IMG/VR virus record: IMGVR_UViG_3300008448_000513
Location: 1 to 26,862 of that record
DNA: 26,862 nucleotides
Origin: a virus
Reading direction: 5' to 3' (one strand)
Made by a program: the position numbers and the translations under genes. The stretch's first letter is position 1, and every line of letters starts with the position of its first letter. Of this stretch, positions 5,029 to 13,229 are shown in pieces. The notes below the pieces were generated by a model. The model saw nothing but the letters and a program-made list of their open reading frames with translations, was not told the origin of the DNA and did not search any database.

Positions 5029-6596
5029 AGGTCGCTCTTAAATTCCATTGGTTCGACTGAATGGGACAGAATCGATCGCACCGGCACATGCCACACGTTT
5101 ATCGTCGATTCCCCAACCCGCAGCTTGCAGCTAATCACCCCCATGCCCTTCAATGCGAACCAAAGATTCACGCCCTTCAATTCCTCGCTCTTGGTTCTCT
5201 TCAGATAGTTGATGTAATCCTGCGCCCTGAATACCACGCATCTCTCGCCTTGGACTTTGGCGACCACCGGCATGCCGCGCATGAGCGATTTTCTGTCCTC
5301 CATGTTGTCGCCCTTGGATGACAGGTCGGTCTTGGATGCGAATTCGCGCAGGCGATCGCGCACCACGCCGGTTACGCTGGCCTCGTCCGGCGTTTCAACT
5401 ATCCGAGCTTCCGCCATGAGTGGCTGCAGCAGACGTTCCCATTCATTGGGCTTGATTACCGGGACGATCTTGGTCAGACGCTCGGCAATCAGCTCCCGCA
5501 TGAACCGCCACTCCAGCAACTGCTGCGTCGAAATGTTGGTAACAGGCTGGCCGTCGATATCGATCTGCCAGCGGATCGGTTCGGTCAGGTATTTTACCAG
5601 ATTATTGAACAGGGGCAAAGACTCGGTAGCCTGCAGCCGGTCTGCCTCGTCCGGCGTTATGCCGAATTCACGCTTCAGACACGTGGCCCGGTCGCACAGG
5701 CTGCGGATCGGTTCTTCGTTACAACGATAGCTGTACCCCGGTCGTGCCGCCGATCCGATTGTGCGCTGCATTTCAGCCCGGCCAAGCGGCTTGGTAAACA
5801 TGGCGGAGTTCGCTTCCTTCGCCCTGCCCTCGTACCCGTCCGGGTCCATCTTTTTGAGATAGATGACCGTGTTATACAGCGCTTCGTTCCGCTGGCCTTG
5901 GCCCACGCCTTCCGTGAACATGCGCTGGACGCACGGCGGCGCATTCGGATGGTCGGCTACAGCATGCGTCTTCAGATCCGATTCGTCTACGCGCAGCTTC
6001 TCCGCCAGCGTCAGGAATTCCAGAAGCTTTAGCTTCTTGCCCTCGCGCACAGCGTACCGGTTCGTGTCGTCTCCGCCAAAATAGGGCAGGTTGATCCAGT
6101 TGCCCAACGATTTCTTGCCCTCGCCGCCCTCGCCGCTGCCCAGCCGCGCCTGCTTGGGGAATATCTCGTGCCCTTTGTACCCGACCACCTCGGACCACCG
6201 GCCCAGCAGCGACCGAATCTTGCTGGCGGCGATCGGCTTCTCCATGAACATGTAGCAGTGAATGCCACCGGACTTGGACCGGCAAGCAATAAGCGGCAGC
6301 TTGTGCTGGCGGATCAATTCATCGACCGGATGGATTGGTATATCCTCGTCCGAATCGTGCGCATCGATGTCGATCGCCGCCCACATGCAAGTGTCGTCAT
6401 CCAGTATCGGCACCCCGCCACAGCCAACGGATCCGGATAGGTGCGGCCCGAATTCTTTTGCAGACAGGCCGGTGTACTCGGTGTGCATGCGCCCGCGTCC
6501 CGGGTCGAATCTGCCGGATGATCGGTCGTTGGACACGAACAGTGCGGCCATTCGTTCCTCGGTCGACGACACCGGTGTTTTCTTGGTGGCGGGCAT
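5025..6596 (-). CDS. Archaeo-eukaryotic-type primase (TOTE-like AEP), primase-polymerase
   Basis: 523 residues. The N-terminal catalytic domain shows AEP motifs: 'AIDIDAHD' (74-81) with the metal-binding aspartates, 'RSKSGGIHCYMF' (106-117) with the conserved GxH, and 'GHEIFPKQ' followed by 'GNWINLPYF' (142-173), the layout of TOTE-type primases. The middle region 'GVGQGQRNEALYNTVIYLKK' resembles the primase C-terminal helical domains of phage and plasmid primases. Three cysteines (C292, C301, C306) in 'RCNEEPIRSLCDRATC' could bind a metal or an iron-sulfur cluster. The expected role is making primers, and perhaps DNA synthesis, at the phage origin. GAGGGG precedes the ATG; the stop of the upstream gene overlaps it (TGATG). 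Confidence 0.92.
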   Translation of the reverse strand: MPATKKTPVSSTEERMAALFVSNDRSSGRFDPGRGRMHTEYTGLSAKEFGPHLSGSVGCGGVPILDDDTCMWAAIDIDAHDSDEDIPIHPVDELIRQHKLPLIACRSKSGGIHCYMFMEKPIAASKIRSLLGRWSEVVGYKGHEIFPKQARLGSGEGGEGKKSLGNWINLPYFGGDDTNRYAVREGKKLKLLEFLTLAEKLRVDESDLKTHAVADHPNAPPCVQRMFTEGVGQGQRNEALYNTVIYLKKMDPDGYEGRAKEANSAMFTKPLGRAEMQRTIGSAARPGYSYRCNEEPIRSLCDRATCLKREFGITPDEADRLQATESLPLFNNLVKYLTEPIRWQIDIDGQPVTNISTQQLLEWRFMRELIAERLTKIVPVIKPNEWERLLQPLMAEARIVETPDEASVTGVVRDRLREFASKTDLSSKGDNMEDRKSLMRGMPVVAKVQGERCVVFRAQDYINYLKRTKSEELKGVNLWFALKGMGVISCKLRVGESTINVWHVPVRSILSHSVEPMEFKSDL

Positions 6597-7644: not shown

Positions 7645-7820
7645 ACCAAGCTCCAGACCAGCAACCCAACAAACCCCAGCATGCAGACGCCGAGCAGGAT
7701 TTCGGCGATCCGTTCATGCTCCAGATAGTCGGCTGTGACGAACACGCACCAAGCGACCAGCGCACCGGTAGACGCGACCAGCCACGCGAACGACTTGATG
7801 TACCACGACAAACGCTTCAT
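7641..7820 (-). CDS. Small two-span membrane protein (59 aa), holin-like size
   Basis: 59 residues. It starts 'MKRLSWYIKSF', has a first hydrophobic helix at about residues 10-30 ('WLVASTGALVAWCVFV'), a charged turn 'DYLEHERIAE', and a second helix at about 41-59 ('ILLGVCMLGFVGLLVWSLV') that ends at the stop codon. GAGGAGAG precedes the ATG. The gene overlaps both neighbours by ATGA. Size and topology fit a small holin or an envelope-modifying peptide. Without an endolysin nearby the lysis role is only a guess. Confidence 0.75.
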   Translation of the reverse strand: MKRLSWYIKSFAWLVASTGALVAWCVFVTADYLEHERIAEILLGVCMLGFVGLLVWSLV

Positions 7821-8653
7821 TTCGCTCTCCTCATGCGGTTGCCCAAATTCATCCTCTGCTGGCCCGGGTTCAGGTGCCCGTACTTGGATTTCAACTCATC
7901 GATGCGCGCTCCCAGCCACTTGGCCGCGATCTTGTACGCGTCGTCGAGCGTCTTGCCGCGCAATGCTTCAGCCACTTGGTCGCCAATGTCGCGCAGACCG
8001 GATTCCTTCATTCGCTGCTCGGTCTCGAGCTTCTGCTTGGTCGGTTGCGGCATGTACGCTTTGCCCCGGACCGGCGCGACTTCCACCAGATCGGCGTGGA
8101 CGGCAAAATATGTGGACTTCAGGTCCAGTGGCGCACCCGGGCGAACCGCAACATCGGTAATGTGGACGTACGACGTTTCGTCCCACGATGCCGGTGCTTT
8201 CGCGATCCAATACCGCTGGTCACGATACCACACGGATTGGCCAGCCACCAGCGCACCAGACTCGTGCTTCCGTGGGCGTGCCTTTTCGGGTATGGTAAGT
8301 GCGACATGGGGTTGTGCACGCAGACCTTTTTCGCCAACCAGTGCGATCGCGGCCCAAGCCTCGGGCGTGACCTCTGCAGCTTCCTCGACCACGACCAGAT
8401 CGTGCGTCTGGCCGGAGATTTTCTCGACCTTGGCGCGCTTGGCCTCGGGCGTAGCCGCTTCCGCTTCCGCCATCGCGGCAAGCGCGCGTGCCCGTGCTGC
8501 GACCTTGGCGCGCTTGGTCTTCGGCTTGACTACGATTTCCTGTACCGGCACTTTGACTTCCGCTTCGCGATCGACAACGACCGGCCCGCCGTCTAATTCC
8601 GCCATCGCGGCAAGCGCGCGTGCCCGTGCTGCGTCTCTATCTCGTCTATTCAT
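7817..8653 (-). CDS. Repeat-containing protein with shared C-terminal 'RMNLGNR' domain
   Basis: 278 residues. The N-terminal 75 residues are Ala/Arg/Lys-rich and carry an internal duplication: 'AARARALAAMAE' occurs twice and 'KRAKV' twice, produced by a perfect 37-bp DNA repeat. A middle beta-rich domain ('GQSVWYRDQRYWIAK', 'DVAVRPGAPLDL') follows. The C-terminal 58 residues (221-278) match the C-terminus of the 10618-11388 product: LRG, LD..YK, AK.LG and 'KYGHLNPGQQRMNLGNR'. The charged tail and the shared module suggest a nucleic-acid-associated protein, but the function is unknown. It is driven by its own promoter (8681-8709) and heads the operon leading into replication. GAGG precedes the ATG. 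Confidence 0.85.
   Translation of the reverse strand: MNRRDRDAARARALAAMAELDGGPVVVDREAEVKVPVQEIVVKPKTKRAKVAARARALAAMAEAEAATPEAKRAKVEKISGQTHDLVVVEEAAEVTPEAWAAIALVGEKGLRAQPHVALTIPEKARPRKHESGALVAGQSVWYRDQRYWIAKAPASWDETSYVHITDVAVRPGAPLDLKSTYFAVHADLVEVAPVRGKAYMPQPTKQKLETEQRMKESGLRDIGDQVAEALRGKTLDDAYKIAAKWLGARIDELKSKYGHLNPGQQRMNLGNRMRRAK
8465..8501. repeat. 37-bp perfect direct repeat, copy 1
   Basis: Identical over 37 bases to 8597-8633. The copies are 132 bp (44 codons) apart, so the reading frame of the host gene is kept and both encode the same Ala/Arg-rich helix. Absence of silent differences points to recent duplication. Confidence 0.9.
8597..8633. repeat. 37-bp perfect direct repeat, copy 2
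   Basis: Second copy of the in-frame repeat at 8465-8501, close to the 5' end of the 7817-8653 gene. Recombination between the copies would delete 44 codons without a frameshift. Confidence 0.9.
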
Positions 8654-8670
8654 CTCGACCTCGCATATGA

Positions 8671-8700
8671 GCAGACCGGCAGTGTATCACGCCGGTCTGC
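8671..8700. other. Perfect inverted repeat around promoter -10
   Basis: 10-bp arms (8671-8680 and 8691-8700, GCAGACCGGC and its complement) separated by 10 nt. The loop contains the -10 of the leftward promoter. It could be an operator for a dimeric regulator, or a hairpin ending the upstream transcript. No T-run follows, so the terminator reading is weak. Confidence 0.7.
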
Positions 8701-8709
8701 TGTTGTCAA
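8681..8709 (-). promoter_or_regulatory. Sigma70-type promoter (extended -10) for 7817-8653 operon
   Basis: On the minus strand: -35 TTGACA (8709-8704), 17-nt spacer, TGA then -10 TACACT (8686-8681). The TGA stop codon of the 8706-9023 gene lies inside the -35 hexamer. The -10 sits inside a perfect inverted repeat. Confidence 0.85.
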
Positions 8710-9023
8710 CGACTCTTGATGATCCGATGCTTCTTCGGTCGTCTGGCCTTCGGTCTCGGCGCGTATTCGGGAAGCTCGCGCGTGAAATCGGTCGACTGCA
8801 TGTAGCTCAGGCCAGCTTGGGTGATGAAATAGGTGTCGGTGTCGCTGCGCCCGACCAGACCTTCACGGCGGATTTGCCACACCATCGCGTCTACTGCGTG
8901 CTGGCTGAAAGCGTGACCGACGCAATCCGTCCGGATGTTGGCGATCGTCGCCGTTGGGGAAGTGGCGATCGATTCCAGCACCATGGCCCGGTGCTCGGTA
9001 GCTGCCCGGTACCGGGCCTTCAC
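8706..9023 (-). CDS. Small winged-helix-like DNA-binding protein candidate
   Basis: 105 residues. The pattern is helix ('RAATEHRAMVLESIATS'), then 'ATIANIRTDC', a recognition-like helix 'SQHAVDAMVWQIRREGLVGR', and a beta hairpin 'DTDTYFITQAGLSYM', which is how a winged-helix domain reads. The C-terminus is very basic ('PRPKARRPKKHRIIKSR'). A transcription-factor role is inference from this layout, and the family is not named. Start GTG 9023 overlaps the upstream stop as GTGA. Its own stop codon forms part of the next promoter's -35. It could regulate the promoters of this zone, which carry inverted repeats. Confidence 0.8.
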   Translation of the reverse strand: MKARYRAATEHRAMVLESIATSPTATIANIRTDCVGHAFSQHAVDAMVWQIRREGLVGRSDTDTYFITQAGLSYMQSTDFTRELPEYAPRPKARRPKKHRIIKSR

Positions 9024-9395: not shown

Positions 9396-9424
9396 AGTGT
9401 ACCACGCCCCCCGGGGGCTGTCAA
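9396..9424 (-). promoter_or_regulatory. Sigma70-type promoter for 9020-9301 / 8706-9023
   Basis: Minus strand: -35 TTGACA (9424-9419), 17-nt spacer, TGG then -10 TACACT (9401-9396). The TGA stop of the 9421-9672 gene is inside the -35, exactly as at 8704-8709. The spacer is a near-palindrome of C and G runs. Confidence 0.88.
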
Positions 9425-9672
9425 CGGCCTTTATGCAAGACCTGTACGGCCACCCGGACGACCAGCTGGATTTCGTGGAGCGGAATGTCGGTCGGCAGGA
9501 CCAACTCCGCGCCCGCGCCCAGCCGGACCACGATGTCGTAATGGCCCGGGCGGCGTGCCGTGATTGCCACAAGTGCGCCGCATTTAGGCAGGTCGTCCAG
9601 CATGTTGCACACATATCCGCGCACATATTGCGCGATCTCGTACTTGCATTCCTTGCTGTTCTCGTCTGCCAT
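9421..9672 (-). CDS. Hypothetical protein, 83 aa
   Basis: Begins 'MADENSKECKYEIAQYVRGY' and continues with 'ARRPGHYDIVVRLGAGAELV' and a hydrophobic C-terminal helix 'HEIQLVVRVAVQVL'. It reads as a small alpha/beta protein, function unknown. The start at ATG 9672 is chosen over 9711 because the repeated leader AGAGGAGAGACGAA, found in front of several genes here, directly precedes it. The longer form would run back through the structured intergenic element. The gene follows copy A of the repeated RNA element and ends inside the next promoter. Confidence 0.8.
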   Translation of the reverse strand: MADENSKECKYEIAQYVRGYVCNMLDDLPKCGALVAITARRPGHYDIVVRLGAGAELVLPTDIPLHEIQLVVRVAVQVLHKGR

Positions 9673-9689: not shown

Positions 9690-9743
9690 GGGCAGGTCGC
9701 CCGTGCCGCACCCGGTCGCCCAGATGCGGCCCGTGGGATCCGC
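9690..9743 (-). ncRNA. Repeated structured intergenic RNA element, copy A
   Basis: 54 nt between a stop codon and the next ribosome-binding site. It starts with the constant GCGGATCCCACGG, then stem GCCGCA/TGCGGC with T-CTG, a 6-nt loop and CGG-G at the top, and ends with the constant ACGGGCGACCTGCCC, which can form its own small hairpin (GGGC/GCCC). The stem sequence differs from copies B and C, but pairing is kept. It may act as a cis-acting mRNA element; the function is unknown. Confidence 0.75.
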
Positions 9744-10220
9744 TCAGTGGTGCCTGCTGTCCCAGTAGATTTCCGGCGTCCAGTAATGAGTCAGCTCCTC
9801 GACCGTGGACTCCACCACTGGCCAGAATCCGATCGCGGATCCGTCACCTTCGTGCGCACCAAAGTACACGCCGAATCGCGTGAAGTGACGATCGATCACC
9901 ATTTCGAAGTCGAAGATCAGATCGGCAGCTTCGTCGAGCCAGATCGGATCGCTCGTGGTCTCTGCGCCTACGGCTTGCACGAGCAGATTTTCGGCCCGGT
10001 GGAACAGCTGCCGCACCACCAACCGCTCACCGACCGGCACGAACATCTGCCATGCGATTTCGTTCCTCGCGATCCAGTGGTCCAGCGTGCGCACGCTGGC
10101 ACGCAGCAGGTCGTCGTACCGGAGTGTGCCGTGGCTGATTTCGTCGCCCGGGGCGGGCATCGCGACAAAGCAGAACGGCCCGACGCATTCGGGCTGCTGG
10201 GACTGATTCGATTCGAACAT
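9744..10220 (-). CDS. Hypothetical protein, 158 aa
   Basis: 158 residues with no family recognised. It opens 'MFESNQSQQPECVGPFCFVA' (two cysteines six residues apart), then a helical, acidic body with 'DDLLRASVRTLDHWIARNEI', 'GERLVVRQLFHRAENLLVQ' and 'LDEAADLIFDFEMVIDRHF', and an aromatic C-terminus 'YWTPEIYWDSRHH'. This is an all-helical soluble protein, perhaps host-directed like many small early phage proteins (inference). ATG 10220 is preferred over 10268 because AGGAGAGACGAA directly precedes it. It is driven by the promoter at 10259-10287 and followed by RNA element copy A. Confidence 0.82.
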   Translation of the reverse strand: MFESNQSQQPECVGPFCFVAMPAPGDEISHGTLRYDDLLRASVRTLDHWIARNEIAWQMFVPVGERLVVRQLFHRAENLLVQAVGAETTSDPIWLDEAADLIFDFEMVIDRHFTRFGVYFGAHEGDGSAIGFWPVVESTVEELTHYWTPEIYWDSRHH

Positions 10221-10258
10221 TTCGTCTCTCCTATGTGTGGGCGGGTACCGCAGGGCCG

Positions 10259-10287
10259 ATCGTACCATGCCAACCGGCCCGCGTCAA
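10259..10287 (-). promoter_or_regulatory. Sigma70-type promoter for 9744-10220 / 9421-9672
   Basis: Minus strand: -35 TTGACG (10287-10282), 17-nt spacer, TGG then -10 TACGAT (10264-10259). It begins one base after the stop codon of the 10289-10537 gene. GGGCCG and CGGCCC flank the -10 as a short inverted repeat. Confidence 0.82.
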
Positions 10288-10288
10288 G

Positions 10289-10537
10289 TTACTTGCCGAA
10301 GCGACGCTCGAAATCCCGGACGAGCACGCGGATCGCCCGGTGCTTGGGCTTGGTTTTGCCGTCCGGCTTGCGGGTTTCCGCGTGCCATGCCTGTGCCGCG
10401 ATGAAATTAGCCAGCCGCTTGATGCGCTGCTTGTTCTTGCCGAGCAGACGACCGACCGTCGGCTGCGCCAGACGGCCCTGCAGACGCGTGATGCCGCTGG
10501 TGAGATTGTGGCCCCACTGCTTATCGCTGAATTTCAT
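10289..10537 (-). CDS. Small basic protein, 82 aa
   Basis: 82 residues, strongly basic. It has 'GITRLQGRLAQPTVGRLLG' then 'NKQRIKRLANFIAAQAWHAE', a linker 'TRKPDGKTKPKHR' and a terminal helix 'IRVLVRDFERRFGK'. The charge and helical layout suggest nucleic-acid binding or binding to an acidic host protein, with no direct evidence. GAGGAGAGACGAA precedes the ATG. It is the third gene of the unit that starts at the promoter 11798-11826 and lies just after RNA element copy B. Confidence 0.8.
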   Translation of the reverse strand: MKFSDKQWGHNLTSGITRLQGRLAQPTVGRLLGKNKQRIKRLANFIAAQAWHAETRKPDGKTKPKHRAIRVLVRDFERRFGK

Positions 10538-10557
10538 TTCGTCTCTCCTCTATGTGT

Positions 10558-10615
10558 GGGCAGGTCGCCCGTGCTGCGCACCCGATCGTCCGGATGCGCA
10601 GCCCGTGGGATCCGC
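10558..10615 (-). ncRNA. Repeated structured intergenic RNA element, copy B
   Basis: 58 nt, the longest stem of the three: GCTGCGCA pairs with TGCGCAGC, capped by T-CCG, loop GACGAT, CGG-G. It is flanked by the same constant GCGGATCCCACGG and ACGGGCGACCTGCCC. It begins 2 nt after the stop codon of the 10618 gene and ends about 20 nt before the next ATG. Confidence 0.78.
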
Positions 10616-10617
10616 GA

Positions 10618-11388
10618 TTACTTGGCGGCGAGCACGGCCCGGACGCGGTTACCGAGATTCATCCGCTGCATGCCCACGTTCAGGTGCTTGTACTTGGCAC
10701 GCAGGGCCTTCTCGTCTTCGCCCAGCGCTTTGGCGCTGAATTTGTAGACGGAGTCGAGATCCTGCCCGCGCAGCTTCTCGGCGATCGTGTCGCCGCAGTC
10801 GACCGACACGTGCCCGCCGATCGTGCGCTTCTCGGCGTCACGGTGGTAGCCAACGGCATACCGACGCAGGACACCCGGGCCTTTGACGGGCTGCTCGTCG
10901 TCGCCGCCGACGGGCTTCGTCGCCTTCTTCGCGGCTTTGGCGGGCTTGGTCGCCTTCTTCGCGGCCTTCTTCGCGGCCTTCTTGGCTGCGGGCTTGCTGG
11001 CCTTCTTGGCTGCGGGCTTGGCGGGCTTGGCGGGCTTCACGGTCTCGGTGGTCTCGGTCACGGCGGATGCTCCTTCGATGGTGGCTTGGGTGGTGGTCAT
11101 GGCGGATTCCTCTTTCGTCTGATTGGTGGGTGCTTCGATGGGTGCTGCAACCGAATTGGAACACACGGCGGGCTGGCTGTCAAGTACCTGCCGATCGAAC
11201 AATTCGTCGGCGCTGCAACCGGACCACTGAATCTGCCCGATTCCGTCCACGCTCACGGCCGTCTGGCCATGGGCATCGGCATCTGCGCCCACTCGGTCGA
11301 TGGCGTACTTGCGCGCCCCAGCCAGTGACTTGAACGTCTTACGCTGCGAATATCCGTCGACTGCGCGATACCGGATCTGGATTTCCAT
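10618..11388 (-). CDS. Histone H1-like Lys/Ala-rich protein with shared C-terminal domain; probable two-start or fused gene
   Basis: 256 residues as one open frame. Residues 1-60 form a small beta-alpha domain ('MEIQIRYRAVDGYSQRKTF'). Residues 118-159 are an H1-like run of KPA and AAKK repeats. Residues 199-256 match the C-terminus of the 7817-8653 protein ('KYKHLNVGMQRMNLGNR'). Two starts look real. ATG 11388 has GAGAGGA and RNA element C in front. ATG 11100 (residue 97) has AGAGGA in front and a promoter at 11155-11183 inside the frame. A separate 160-residue protein from 11100 is therefore likely, with or without the long form. The Lys/Ala tail should bind DNA or RNA. The nucleoid-like role is inference. 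Confidence 0.8.
   Translation of the reverse strand: MEIQIRYRAVDGYSQRKTFKSLAGARKYAIDRVGADADAHGQTAVSVDGIGQIQWSGCSADELFDRQVLDSQPAVCSNSVAAPIEAPTNQTKEESAMTTTQATIEGASAVTETTETVKPAKPAKPAAKKASKPAAKKAAKKAAKKATKPAKAAKKATKPVGGDDEQPVKGPGVLRRYAVGYHRDAEKRTIGGHVSVDCGDTIAEKLRGQDLDSVYKFSAKALGEDEKALRAKYKHLNVGMQRMNLGNRVRAVLAAK
11155..11183 (-). promoter_or_regulatory. Internal promoter candidate inside the Lys/Ala-rich gene
   Basis: Minus strand: -35 TTGACA (11183-11178), 17-nt spacer, TGT then -10 TCCAAT (11160-11155). The -10 is weak, but GTACTTGACAGCCAGCC is identical to the strong promoter at 11798-11826, and AATTCG follows at the same place in both. It would start RNA about 48 nt before ATG 11100. Confidence 0.55.
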
Positions 11389-11410
11389 GTCTGTCCTCTC
11401 TCGTCTGTGC

Positions 11411-11464
11411 GGGCAGGTCGCCCGTCAGGCACCCGGGTTAGCGGATGCCTGCCGTGGGATCCGC
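11411..11464 (-). ncRNA. Repeated structured intergenic RNA element, copy C
   Basis: 54 nt with stem CAGGCA/TGCCTG, top T-CCG, loop CTAACC, CGG-G. Flanking constants are the same as in copies A and B. It starts 1 nt after the stop codon of the 11466-11735 gene and precedes the start of the 11388 gene. Confidence 0.75.
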
Positions 11465-11465
11465 G

Positions 11466-11735
11466 TTAGTGCTTGGGGGTCGCCGCCCGGATAGCTGCGC
11501 TGATCGGGTTGACGGCATCGTAAAGCTCCTTCGCCGTCGGCCGCACATTGACGCCCCACTCGACGCCTTCGCCGTCTGCGAATGTCGCAGGGCCGTCGCA
11601 ATCCTGCTCATCGAGCAGATCGATGAATGACTCGCCGCAGACGCCCGTCTCATCAGCCAGCCAGTCGATCGCCGCTTCGACCGTGTCTGCCACGAATGCC
11701 ACATCGCCGTCTCGGGTGATGATCACTGCTGCCAT
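11466..11735 (-). CDS. Small acidic protein, 89 aa, first leftward gene
   Basis: 89 residues, very acidic. It has 'MAAVIITRDGDVAFVADTVE', then 'AAIDWLADETGVCGESFIDL', 'LDEQDCDGPATFADGEG' and a helical C-terminus 'TAKELYDAVNPISAAIRAAT'. The family is not recognised. Small acidic early phage proteins often mimic DNA or bind host enzymes, but nothing here proves that. AGGAGA precedes the ATG. It is the first gene behind the best leftward promoter (11798-11826) with a leader of about 55 nt, so it is probably among the earliest and most strongly expressed genes. Confidence 0.82.
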   Translation of the reverse strand: MAAVIITRDGDVAFVADTVEAAIDWLADETGVCGESFIDLLDEQDCDGPATFADGEGVEWGVNVRPTAKELYDAVNPISAAIRAATPKH

Positions 11736-11797
11736 GTCGTATCTCCTATCTGGGACCCCCGGTGCCGCCGGGCCGGTAATGCAGTACTACAGGACGA

Positions 11798-11826
11798 ATT
11801 ATACCAGACCCCCGGCTGGCTGTCAA
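11798..11826 (-). promoter_or_regulatory. Consensus leftward sigma70 promoter
   Basis: Minus strand: perfect -35 TTGACA (11826-11821), 17-nt spacer, TGG then perfect -10 TATAAT (11803-11798). It is the strongest promoter in the window by sequence. It lies at the edge of the GC-rich divergent region and would start the leftward (probably early) transcript. Confidence 0.95.
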
Positions 11827-12262
11827 GTACCCCCCGGTATCGAGCCGACGAACGGTAGTCGTCTCGCCCCCTGAGCGCGCGCCGACGCGCACCCCCTGCG
11901 CACTCGCGAGCGTGACGCGCTTACCCGGCGCGCGTTCCGTGGGCGTTCCGTCCCGACCCCCGGACGACAGAACAGGACGCACCCGAGCGGGCCGGTAAGC
12001 ATGCGTCTGTTCCGCGCGAGCACGGCACGGCGGATACGGGCGCAGAACAGGGCGCATAGGGCCAGAGGCCCCGACGGACGGGGCGCGTAGGCACATGGAC
12101 CCCCGGTCTGTTCCGTCGTTCCGCGCGCTCGCGTACGCCTATGCGTCCGGAGCCGAGCGCCTCGCGTACGCGCATCGACGCGCATGAAACGGCCAGAACG
12201 GGCCGGTAAGCCACAGGAGACAGGTGCGCAGATGGGCGCGCGCCCGGTAGGGGCGATGGGGC

Positions 12263-12291
12263 TGGACACGGACGGCGGGCTGTGGTATCCT
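12263..12291 (+). promoter_or_regulatory. Rightward promoter for morphogenesis genes
   Basis: -35 TGGACA (12263-12268), 17-nt spacer, TGG then -10 TATCCT (12286-12291). Spacing and extended -10 match the leftward promoters. It would produce a terminase mRNA with a leader of about 415 nt. That rules out a terminase start near 12282, because this lies upstream of the transcript start. Confidence 0.65.
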
Positions 12292-12513
12292 CGGGGTCCG
12301 TCGCGTACGCGCGTGTTCTCCCCGGCCCATTCCCGATGCCCCGTCGCCCTGCTTCCCCCCCTTCCATGCCCGCGCCTTCCGCGCCAGCCAGCATTCGCGC
12401 TTCCCGACCGGGTGCGCTGGCGGAACGGGCGACCGAAAGTGCGCGTGGAACGGGCAAGCCTGCGGCACGCGGAACGGGCGCGAATGCGATCGGGCCGGGG
12501 GGGACGGCGGCAT

Positions 12514-12603
12514 CCGGGGGGCGGCGATCGGGGGCGGCGATCGGGGGCGGATCCGGGGCGGAGACCGGGGGTCCGGAACGGGCGATCGGGGGCGGATCCG
12601 GGG
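12514..12603 (+). repeat. G-run repeat block with quadruplex potential
   Basis: GGCGATCGGGGGC occurs twice in tandem (12523-12535, 12536-12548) and again at 12581-12593. The 23 bases at 12536-12558 recur exactly at 12581-12603. More than four runs of four or more G with loops of about 3 to 8 nt meet a simple G-quadruplex pattern on the plus strand, which is also the mRNA strand of the terminase leader. Confidence 0.75.
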
Positions 12604-12678
12604 GGGATTCGACGGGGGATTCGCCGCGCGCGCGGAACGGGAATGGGCGAATGCCCGCGCGATTGCAGGGAGGGGGGG

Positions 12679-12706
12679 AGGAGGGCCCCAAATGCGGGTC
12701 CCATAA
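12679..12706 (+). other. Strong ribosome-binding site with four-codon minigene
   Basis: AGGAGGG (12679-12685), then six bases, then ATG (12692) opening MRVP and a TAA stop (12704-12706). GTG 12714 of the terminase gene follows 7 nt later in another frame. This is either a leader peptide for re-initiation or a one-base frame error, because a +1 shift after the third codon would enter the terminase frame. Confidence 0.5.
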
Positions 12707-12713
12707 CGGGGGC

Positions 12714-13229
12714 GTGGGTGCGTCGCAGTCCCGACAGACTATTCAGGATACCATTACCTCCGCTCCGGATACCCTGAACGCCGAACTGGATTCATCTCTG
12801 GACACCCTCGCTGCCAAGATTCGCACCCGCAGTTCGAAGCGGAAGGCAGTTGAGATTTTGGCGAAAGCCCACAAGATAGACTTGAAGAACGTGGGCAAGG
12901 GCGAAGACGGCAAGGTGATGCCCCACACCCGGACCGAGCAAACGACCGAACAGGTGATGAGGTATGTCGCCTGTGGTGCGTCGAGGGAAGAGATAGCCGT
13001 GATGATGAATCTTCGGCCAGGGGTCCTGCAGAAACACTATGCGCGCGAGCTAGAGATAGGGTTGACGCAGAACAACATGAAGGTGGCTGGTACATTACTG
13101 GACATGGCGACGTCCGGCGAATTCGAGACCAGCACCATCTATTGGACGAAAGCGCGCATGGGCTGGCGCGACAAGGACACACCGGGCACACAGATGGTTA
13201 ACCCGCTGCAGATCAACATCCACATCTGA
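12714..13229 (+). CDS. terS: Terminase small subunit
   Basis: 171 residues. The C-terminal half is typical of phage small terminases: 'TEQVMRYVACGASREEIAVM' followed by 'NLRPGVLQKHYARELEIGL' (helix-turn-helix), 'NNMKVAGTLLDMATSG' and 'TIYWTKARMGWRDK'. It would recognise phage DNA and load the large subunit for packaging. The frame is open back to 12282, but upstream sequence is low-complexity Gly/Ser/Arg and normal codon use starts only near 12720. GTG 12714 is therefore preferred; ATG 12651 and ATG 12918 (in front of 'MPHTRTEQ') are alternatives. The odd minigene just upstream leaves the true start uncertain. Confidence 0.85.
   Translation: MGASQSRQTIQDTITSAPDTLNAELDSSLDTLAAKIRTRSSKRKAVEILAKAHKIDLKNVGKGEDGKVMPHTRTEQTTEQVMRYVACGASREEIAVMMNLRPGVLQKHYARELEIGLTQNNMKVAGTLLDMATSGEFETSTIYWTKARMGWRDKDTPGTQMVNPLQINIHI

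Follow-up and report, generated by a model that had tools for sequence, protein, structure and literature searches.

Type II hammerhead ribozymes cut between stem III and stem I. The RNase III sites between the early genes of phage T7 are long, irregular intercistronic hairpins of about 20 bp with internal bulges. The put RNA of phage HK022 suppresses termination via the zinc-binding domain of the beta' subunit of RNA polymerase. Type II hammerheads (RF02276) are found at the gene junctions of phages and prophages (Perreault et al. 2011, PMC3088659), while put RNAs have two stem-loops and a position downstream of early promoters (PMC9378689). The ESAS elements of cluster K mycobacteriophages contain imperfect inverted repeats, for which their authors found little support for an mRNA hairpin (PMC3203893).

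We analyzed an RNA element from IMG/VR record IMGVR_UViG_3300008448_000513. The window is the complete record (26,862 bases). The phage is podovirus-like: it encodes a T7-type head-tail adaptor, tail tube proteins, a primase, and two helicases. Megablast did not find a near relative in a phage collection, and the closest relatives of the adaptor that we found in IMG/VR are at or below about 70% protein identity. In bacterial genomes, the only prophage relative was in one distant Verrucomicrobia MAG. As described below, the element is a sense-strand RNA structure between one gene's stop codon and the Shine-Dalgarno leader of the next gene. It shares this slot with type II hammerheads of sister phages, and it probably serves to cut or insulate messages that span several genes.

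Three copies at gene junctions

We confirmed three copies of the element, all on the minus strand: copy 1 at 9690-9743, copy 2 at 10558-10615, and copy 3 at 11411-11464. Each has a 13-nt 5' arm (GCGGATCCCACGG), then hairpin 1, and then a 15-nt 3' arm (ACGGGCGACCTGCCC) with hairpin 2 (GGGC-GACCT-GCCC). The 28 nt of the arms are identical in all three copies. Hairpin 1 is GCCGCATCTG-GGCGAC-CGGGTGCGGC in copy 1, GCTGCGCATCCG-GACGAT-CGGGTGCGCAGC in copy 2, and CAGGCATCCG-CTAACC-CGGGTGCCTG in copy 3. Copies 1 and 3 differ at 12 of 26 positions of the inner hairpin but at 0 of 28 positions of the arms (Fisher p 3e-5). Despite these differences, the inner stem is fully paired in every copy.

Every copy sits 3' of a complete upstream gene. 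Copy 3 begins 1 nt after the TAA of gene A (11466..11735, minus strand; 89 aa, no family match) and ends 22 nt before the ATG of Bn. The ORF Bn-B (10618..11388, minus strand), whose C-terminal domain is phrog_8941, is followed by copy 2, which begins 2 nt after the TAA of gene B and ends 20 nt before the ATG of gene C (10289..10537, minus strand; 82 aa, no family match). Copy 1 begins directly (0 nt) after the TGA of gene D (9744..10220, minus strand), which encodes 158 aa from an ATG preceded by a Shine-Dalgarno sequence and has only a marginal match, to phrog_29605. It ends 17 nt before the ATG of gene E (9421..9672, minus strand; 83 aa). The elements are followed by CACACATAGAGG and similar sequences. 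The element is not coding, because the three copies start in three frames when read on from the upstream genes. These frames, along with the use of both TAA and TGA stops, also rule out a coding extension or stop-codon readthrough. A sequence-only reading of this DNA had described the three copies, and its positions, common arms, and spacings to stop codons and ATGs agree with ours. Its stem pairs, U-G step, and 6-nt loop are correct as well; the top of the stem, given there as three bases, measured 2-3 bp.

The element strand carries four sigma-70-like promoters with 17-nt spacers. The promoter of gene A is TTGACA-N17-TATAAT (12/12; 11798..11826, minus strand), and that of gene D is TTGACG-N17-TACGAT (10259..10287, minus strand). 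The leader of gene D (10221..10252, minus strand), taken from approximately where transcription should start, consists of the hairpin GCGG-TAC-CCGC and then CCACACATAGGAGAGACGAA. This promoter-driven leader closely resembles the end of the element (GGGC-GACCU-GCCC) plus the leader of genes C and E: their own leaders open with GGGC-GACCU-GCCC, and the rest is common with gene D. More broadly, 103-110 promoter leaders in relatives show somewhat more stable folding than their mononucleotide shuffles (mean z -1.4), and hairpins exactly at their transcription starts are not clearly commoner than in shuffles. Across all loci, a short hairpin precedes 20% of AUAGACGA-type leaders, versus 13% in shuffles, which is a modest excess.

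Several other features of this region were observed in passing. The gene order is very compact: genes E and G each end in a TGA that is part of the TTGACA -35 box of the promoter that follows (9419-9424 and 8704-8709, minus strand). Inverted repeats flank the -10 boxes in the promoters of genes H and D (8672-8701 and 10253-10280, minus strand; GCAGACCGGC-GTGATACACT-GCCGGTCTGC and GGGCCG..CGGCCC). They differ in sequence between the two promoters, and similar promoter dyads are found in loci L081 and L104 from related phages. The promoter region of gene A (11795-11836) is repeated at 79% identity, in frame, inside ORF Bn-B (11152-11193). The -10 box of this inner copy is degraded, which looks like the decay of a promoter and the fusion of two genes. 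Before its phrog_8941 domain, gene B has a Lys/Ala-rich repeat (AAKKAAKKATKPAKAAKKATKP; 10900-11030, minus strand) that resembles a histone H1-type tail. Gene H (7817-8653) has a phrog_8941 domain as well, and it contains a perfect 37-nt direct repeat (8465-8501 and 8597-8633). The very GC-rich stretch at 12100-12800 lies between two transcription directions, has repeats of GGCGATCGGGGGCGGATCCGGGG at 12536 and 12581, and is possibly an origin or control region. In other phages (L096 at ~8813-8870, L100:5867-5930, L112, and L116), a small hairpin, CGGTG-GATTT-CACCG, immediately precedes ATAGACGATAGAGGA in promoter-driven leaders; L096 has a tandem duplication of this hairpin together with the leader start.

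Searches for more copies gave little. There is no fourth copy in the 26,862-base contig, and an exact pattern scan of IMG/VR found 0 matches to the arms elsewhere. A loosened scan of IMG/VR gave 2 matches, one of them in an integrase-like gene; neither formed the hairpin, and we consider them chance-like. Comparison of the element to phage and plasmid DNA gave weak chance matches only. The sequence-only reading had suggested searching phages with a covariance model, and the model that we built from the three copies (R1) found nothing at E <= 1 in 24 whole related records. In 80 more loci it had one match, with E of 9.9, which we judged to be chance. The element also matches no family in Rfam 15 by covariance models, which agrees with the earlier statement that it belongs to no described family.

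Like the ESAS, the element is repeated, contains imperfect inverted repeats, and lies just upstream of the starts of small non-structural genes; a consensus that varies between sub-lineages is another similarity. However, the 13-bp SAS motif at the start codon is missing (the leaders are AGAGGAGAGACGAAATG or ACGAGAGAGGACAGACATG, not GGGATAGGAGCCC), which rules out that the element is an ESAS. Also, changes in the element are compensated and strand-specific, while the repeats of ESAS are not compensated (PMC3203893).

Folding of the element

At minimum energy, RNAfold puts each of the three copies into a single long hairpin with bulges and 20-22 bp. In this fold the conserved 5' and 3' arms are paired to one another (GCGG.UC.CC.CG with CG.GG.GA.CUGC), and hairpin 2 becomes part of the long stem. 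The sequence-only reading missed this mutual pairing and proposed two tandem stem-loops. That form can be drawn, as hairpin 1 plus GGGC-GACCU-GCCC, but it is 5.3-5.4 kcal/mol weaker than the long hairpin.

On the coding strand, the folding z scores of copies 1, 2, and 3 are -3.4, -4.3, and -3.7. The opposite strand folds far worse (+0.1, -2.5, and -1.5), because the invariant U-G pairs turn into A-C there. This asymmetry points to the RNA of the coding strand, and it speaks against both a palindrome at the DNA level and a symmetric site for a protein. An intrinsic terminator is ruled out, as there is no U run after the hairpin and no terminator-like site at any element.

That the coding-strand RNA structure is under selection for pairing is well supported. 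Selection on RNA structure had been claimed earlier from the compensatory changes among the three copies; to these we can add hairpins from two other phages, the strand asymmetry, and a structured slot in relatives.

The same slot in related phages

We collected 80 loci from relatives via the C-terminal phrog_8941 domain of gene B. In the closest loci, a strong hairpin comes immediately after the stop of the B homologue, and a purine-rich leader comes next. At this orthologous junction, L081 (record G008) and L086/L087 have the collar of hairpin 1 (GCAUC/GGGUGC), with different arms. When we scanned IMG/VR for the GCATC/GGGTGC hairpin followed by a leader, we found 23 matches, and the only real ones were from G008 (L081/L170) and L086/L162. 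The hairpins of L081 and L086 show further covariation, beyond what could be seen in the three copies. Across the five hairpins (three copies plus two other phages), 97.8% of cells are paired, and in 7 cells both sides have changed; none of 500 shuffles reached either value. With five related sequences, such covariation is supportive but is not proof.

The slot after the stop codon is structured in the relatives as well. The 65-nt segments that follow the B stop in 42 relatives have a mean z of -2.47. Coding controls from these genes average -0.05 (p 4e-12), and the antisense strand averages -1.65 (p 6e-4). In many relatives the slot hairpins are simpler, and a few are terminator-like. In L080, L081, L086, and L091, both the long and the two-hairpin forms can be drawn, and the long form is 2-8 kcal/mol better. 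A pseudoknot between the hairpin-2 loop and the 5' arm seemed suggestive by eye, but we do not claim it, as a permutation test with swapped arms across seven phages gave p 0.09.

In at least four of these relatives, type II hammerheads occupy the slot directly after the B homologue. Rfam's model matches there in L082 (33.3 bits), L118 (32.5 bits), and L117 (26.4 bits), and L092 has a type II hammerhead in this slot by motif only. Hammerheads are also present at other gene junctions in L118 (41.4 bits) and L136 (39.4 bits), as well as in L090, L092, and L152. Only the matches of 41.4 and 39.4 bits reach Rfam's gathering score of 37; the matches below it rest on an intact core in our motif scan, or, for L082, on its Rfam alignment. 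The motif scan required GAA before stem III, UH after stem III, and CUGANGA after stem I, and this core was present in L090, L092, L117, L118, L136, and L152. The type II hammerheads at gene junctions of related phages are at L082:6229-6300, L117:6202-6274, L118:3504-3569 and 6221-6280, L136:2992-3060, L152:1459-1537, L092:5370-5438, and L090:4574-4629 (minus strand).

The element and the type II hammerheads share the slot between the stop codon and the next leader, and both occur in several copies per phage around small genes. The order of parts is also parallel: the ribozyme has a 5' arm, stem III, the cleavage site, stem I, the core, and the leader, while the element has a 5' arm, hairpin 1 (corresponding to stem III), hairpin 2 (corresponding to stem I), and the leader. 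The equivalence of the slot is shown by position. Nevertheless, the element is not a hammerhead: it lacks the core (GAA / CUGANGA / UH), and its 5' arm pairs with the hairpin-2 region instead of with sequence beyond hairpin 2. The motif scan found no hammerhead core in the window, and the elements have no Rfam hammerhead match.

Possible functions of the element

Because sister phages often have a hammerhead in the element's slot, we read the element as a processing or insulation device. We propose, with a probability of roughly 0.4, that it processes or insulates RNA between cistrons and fills the role of the sister phages' hammerheads by a different mechanism, most likely via a host RNase. 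Its recurrence at three gene junctions, with four promoters on that strand, supports a role in processing, as do the compensatory changes, the strand asymmetry, the structured slot of relatives, the hammerheads found there, and the leader of gene D. The element would then be a cis-acting RNA module that parts adjacent small genes in a polycistronic phage mRNA. The transcript would be cut or insulated at the element, with the long irregular hairpin or the junction of hairpins 1 and 2 as the putative target of the RNase. Hairpin 1 would then protect the 3' end of the upstream message, and hairpin 2 would protect the 5' end of the downstream message, just before its ribosome-binding site. Judging from the anatomy of the element, cleavage immediately before hairpin 2 would leave the mRNAs of genes C, E, and Bn with 5' ends like the one that the gene D promoter produces. 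We speculate that a ribosome that finishes translation at the adjoining stop codon may cover the 5' arm and favor the two-hairpin form. Among the roles that the sequence-only reading had left open, RNase processing and translation control fit best.

The RNase III sites of T7 are similar in that the element has an irregular bulged duplex of 20-22 bp in all three copies, where such sites have about 20 bp or more. However, the sequences are unrelated, the arms of the element are invariant, and cleavage of the element by RNase III is putative. Also, this region has several short promoter-driven units, while T7 has one long early transcript. The arms are invariant in the three copies and absent from L081 and L086. 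This pattern hints at recognition of specific sequence, more than a simple RNase III target would need, and at a lineage-specific partner, and it is the main fact that processing leaves unexplained. Other points against processing are the loss of a separate hairpin 2 in the best fold, the missing hammerhead core and Rfam match, the lack of a clear excess of hairpins at transcription starts, and the simpler, in a few cases terminator-like, slot hairpins of many relatives.

The terminating ribosome could act without any cleavage: by covering the 5' arm it would open the long hairpin, hairpin 2 would form, and translation of the next gene would change. The start of the 5' arm just downstream of the stop codon fits such coupling or insulation, and so do the alternative pairings of the 3' arm (with the 5' arm or with itself), which L080, L081, L086, and L091 have as well. 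But neither form sequesters the Shine-Dalgarno sequence, the complementarity of the 5' arm to the hairpin-2 loop across seven phages is no better than with swapped arms (p 0.09), and the hammerheads in the same slot are unexplained, so we consider this switch somewhat unlikely. We have less confidence in an element that acts on transcription, whether as a put-like or protein-dependent antiterminator or as a structure that protects the untranslated gap against Rho. In its favor, the invariance of the arms points to specific recognition, there are several short units with promoters of their own, and two stem-loops, recalling put, can be drawn, although the long hairpin is more stable. However, put RNAs are found downstream of early promoters (PMC9378689), while these elements lie between cistrons and fold best as one long hairpin; the position of the element does not support its being a put RNA, and the analogy that was drawn earlier is weak. 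No terminator-like site coincides with any element, and processing would explain a structured gap too. Overall, a role in transcription is unlikely.

The element might instead be a recently duplicated leader or mRNA 3'-end hairpin that contributes nothing beyond generic mRNA stability. There are only three copies, on one contig and within 1.8 kb, and the leaders are duplicated as well. Simple duplication does not account for the contrast between 0/28 arm changes and 12/26 hairpin changes, for the preserved compensation, or for the structured orthologous slot of other phages, and we consider it quite unlikely. An undescribed class of self-cleaving ribozyme that replaced the hammerheads in the window phage is very improbable. 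Such a ribozyme would explain the slot shared with type II hammerheads, and the two-hairpin form does have invariant unpaired arms around a covarying peripheral stem, which is the pattern of a small ribozyme core. Yet a ribozyme core should be kept, and in the two phages that share hairpin 1 the arms are not; also, the arms pair well with each other, and no Rfam ribozyme matches. Taken more broadly, the idea that either an undescribed self-cleaving ribozyme or a ribosome-gated switch replaced the hammerheads of sister phages, so that unrelated RNAs were recruited for one job, has a low probability in our view.

The element points to a defined slot, reaching from the stop codon to the next ribosome-binding site, which in this group of phages is filled by interchangeable structured RNAs, with hammerheads among them. 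Phages carry many intergenic hammerheads, and a comparison of phages that have a ribozyme at the orthologous junction to those that have this hairpin there makes the message-processing idea directly testable.
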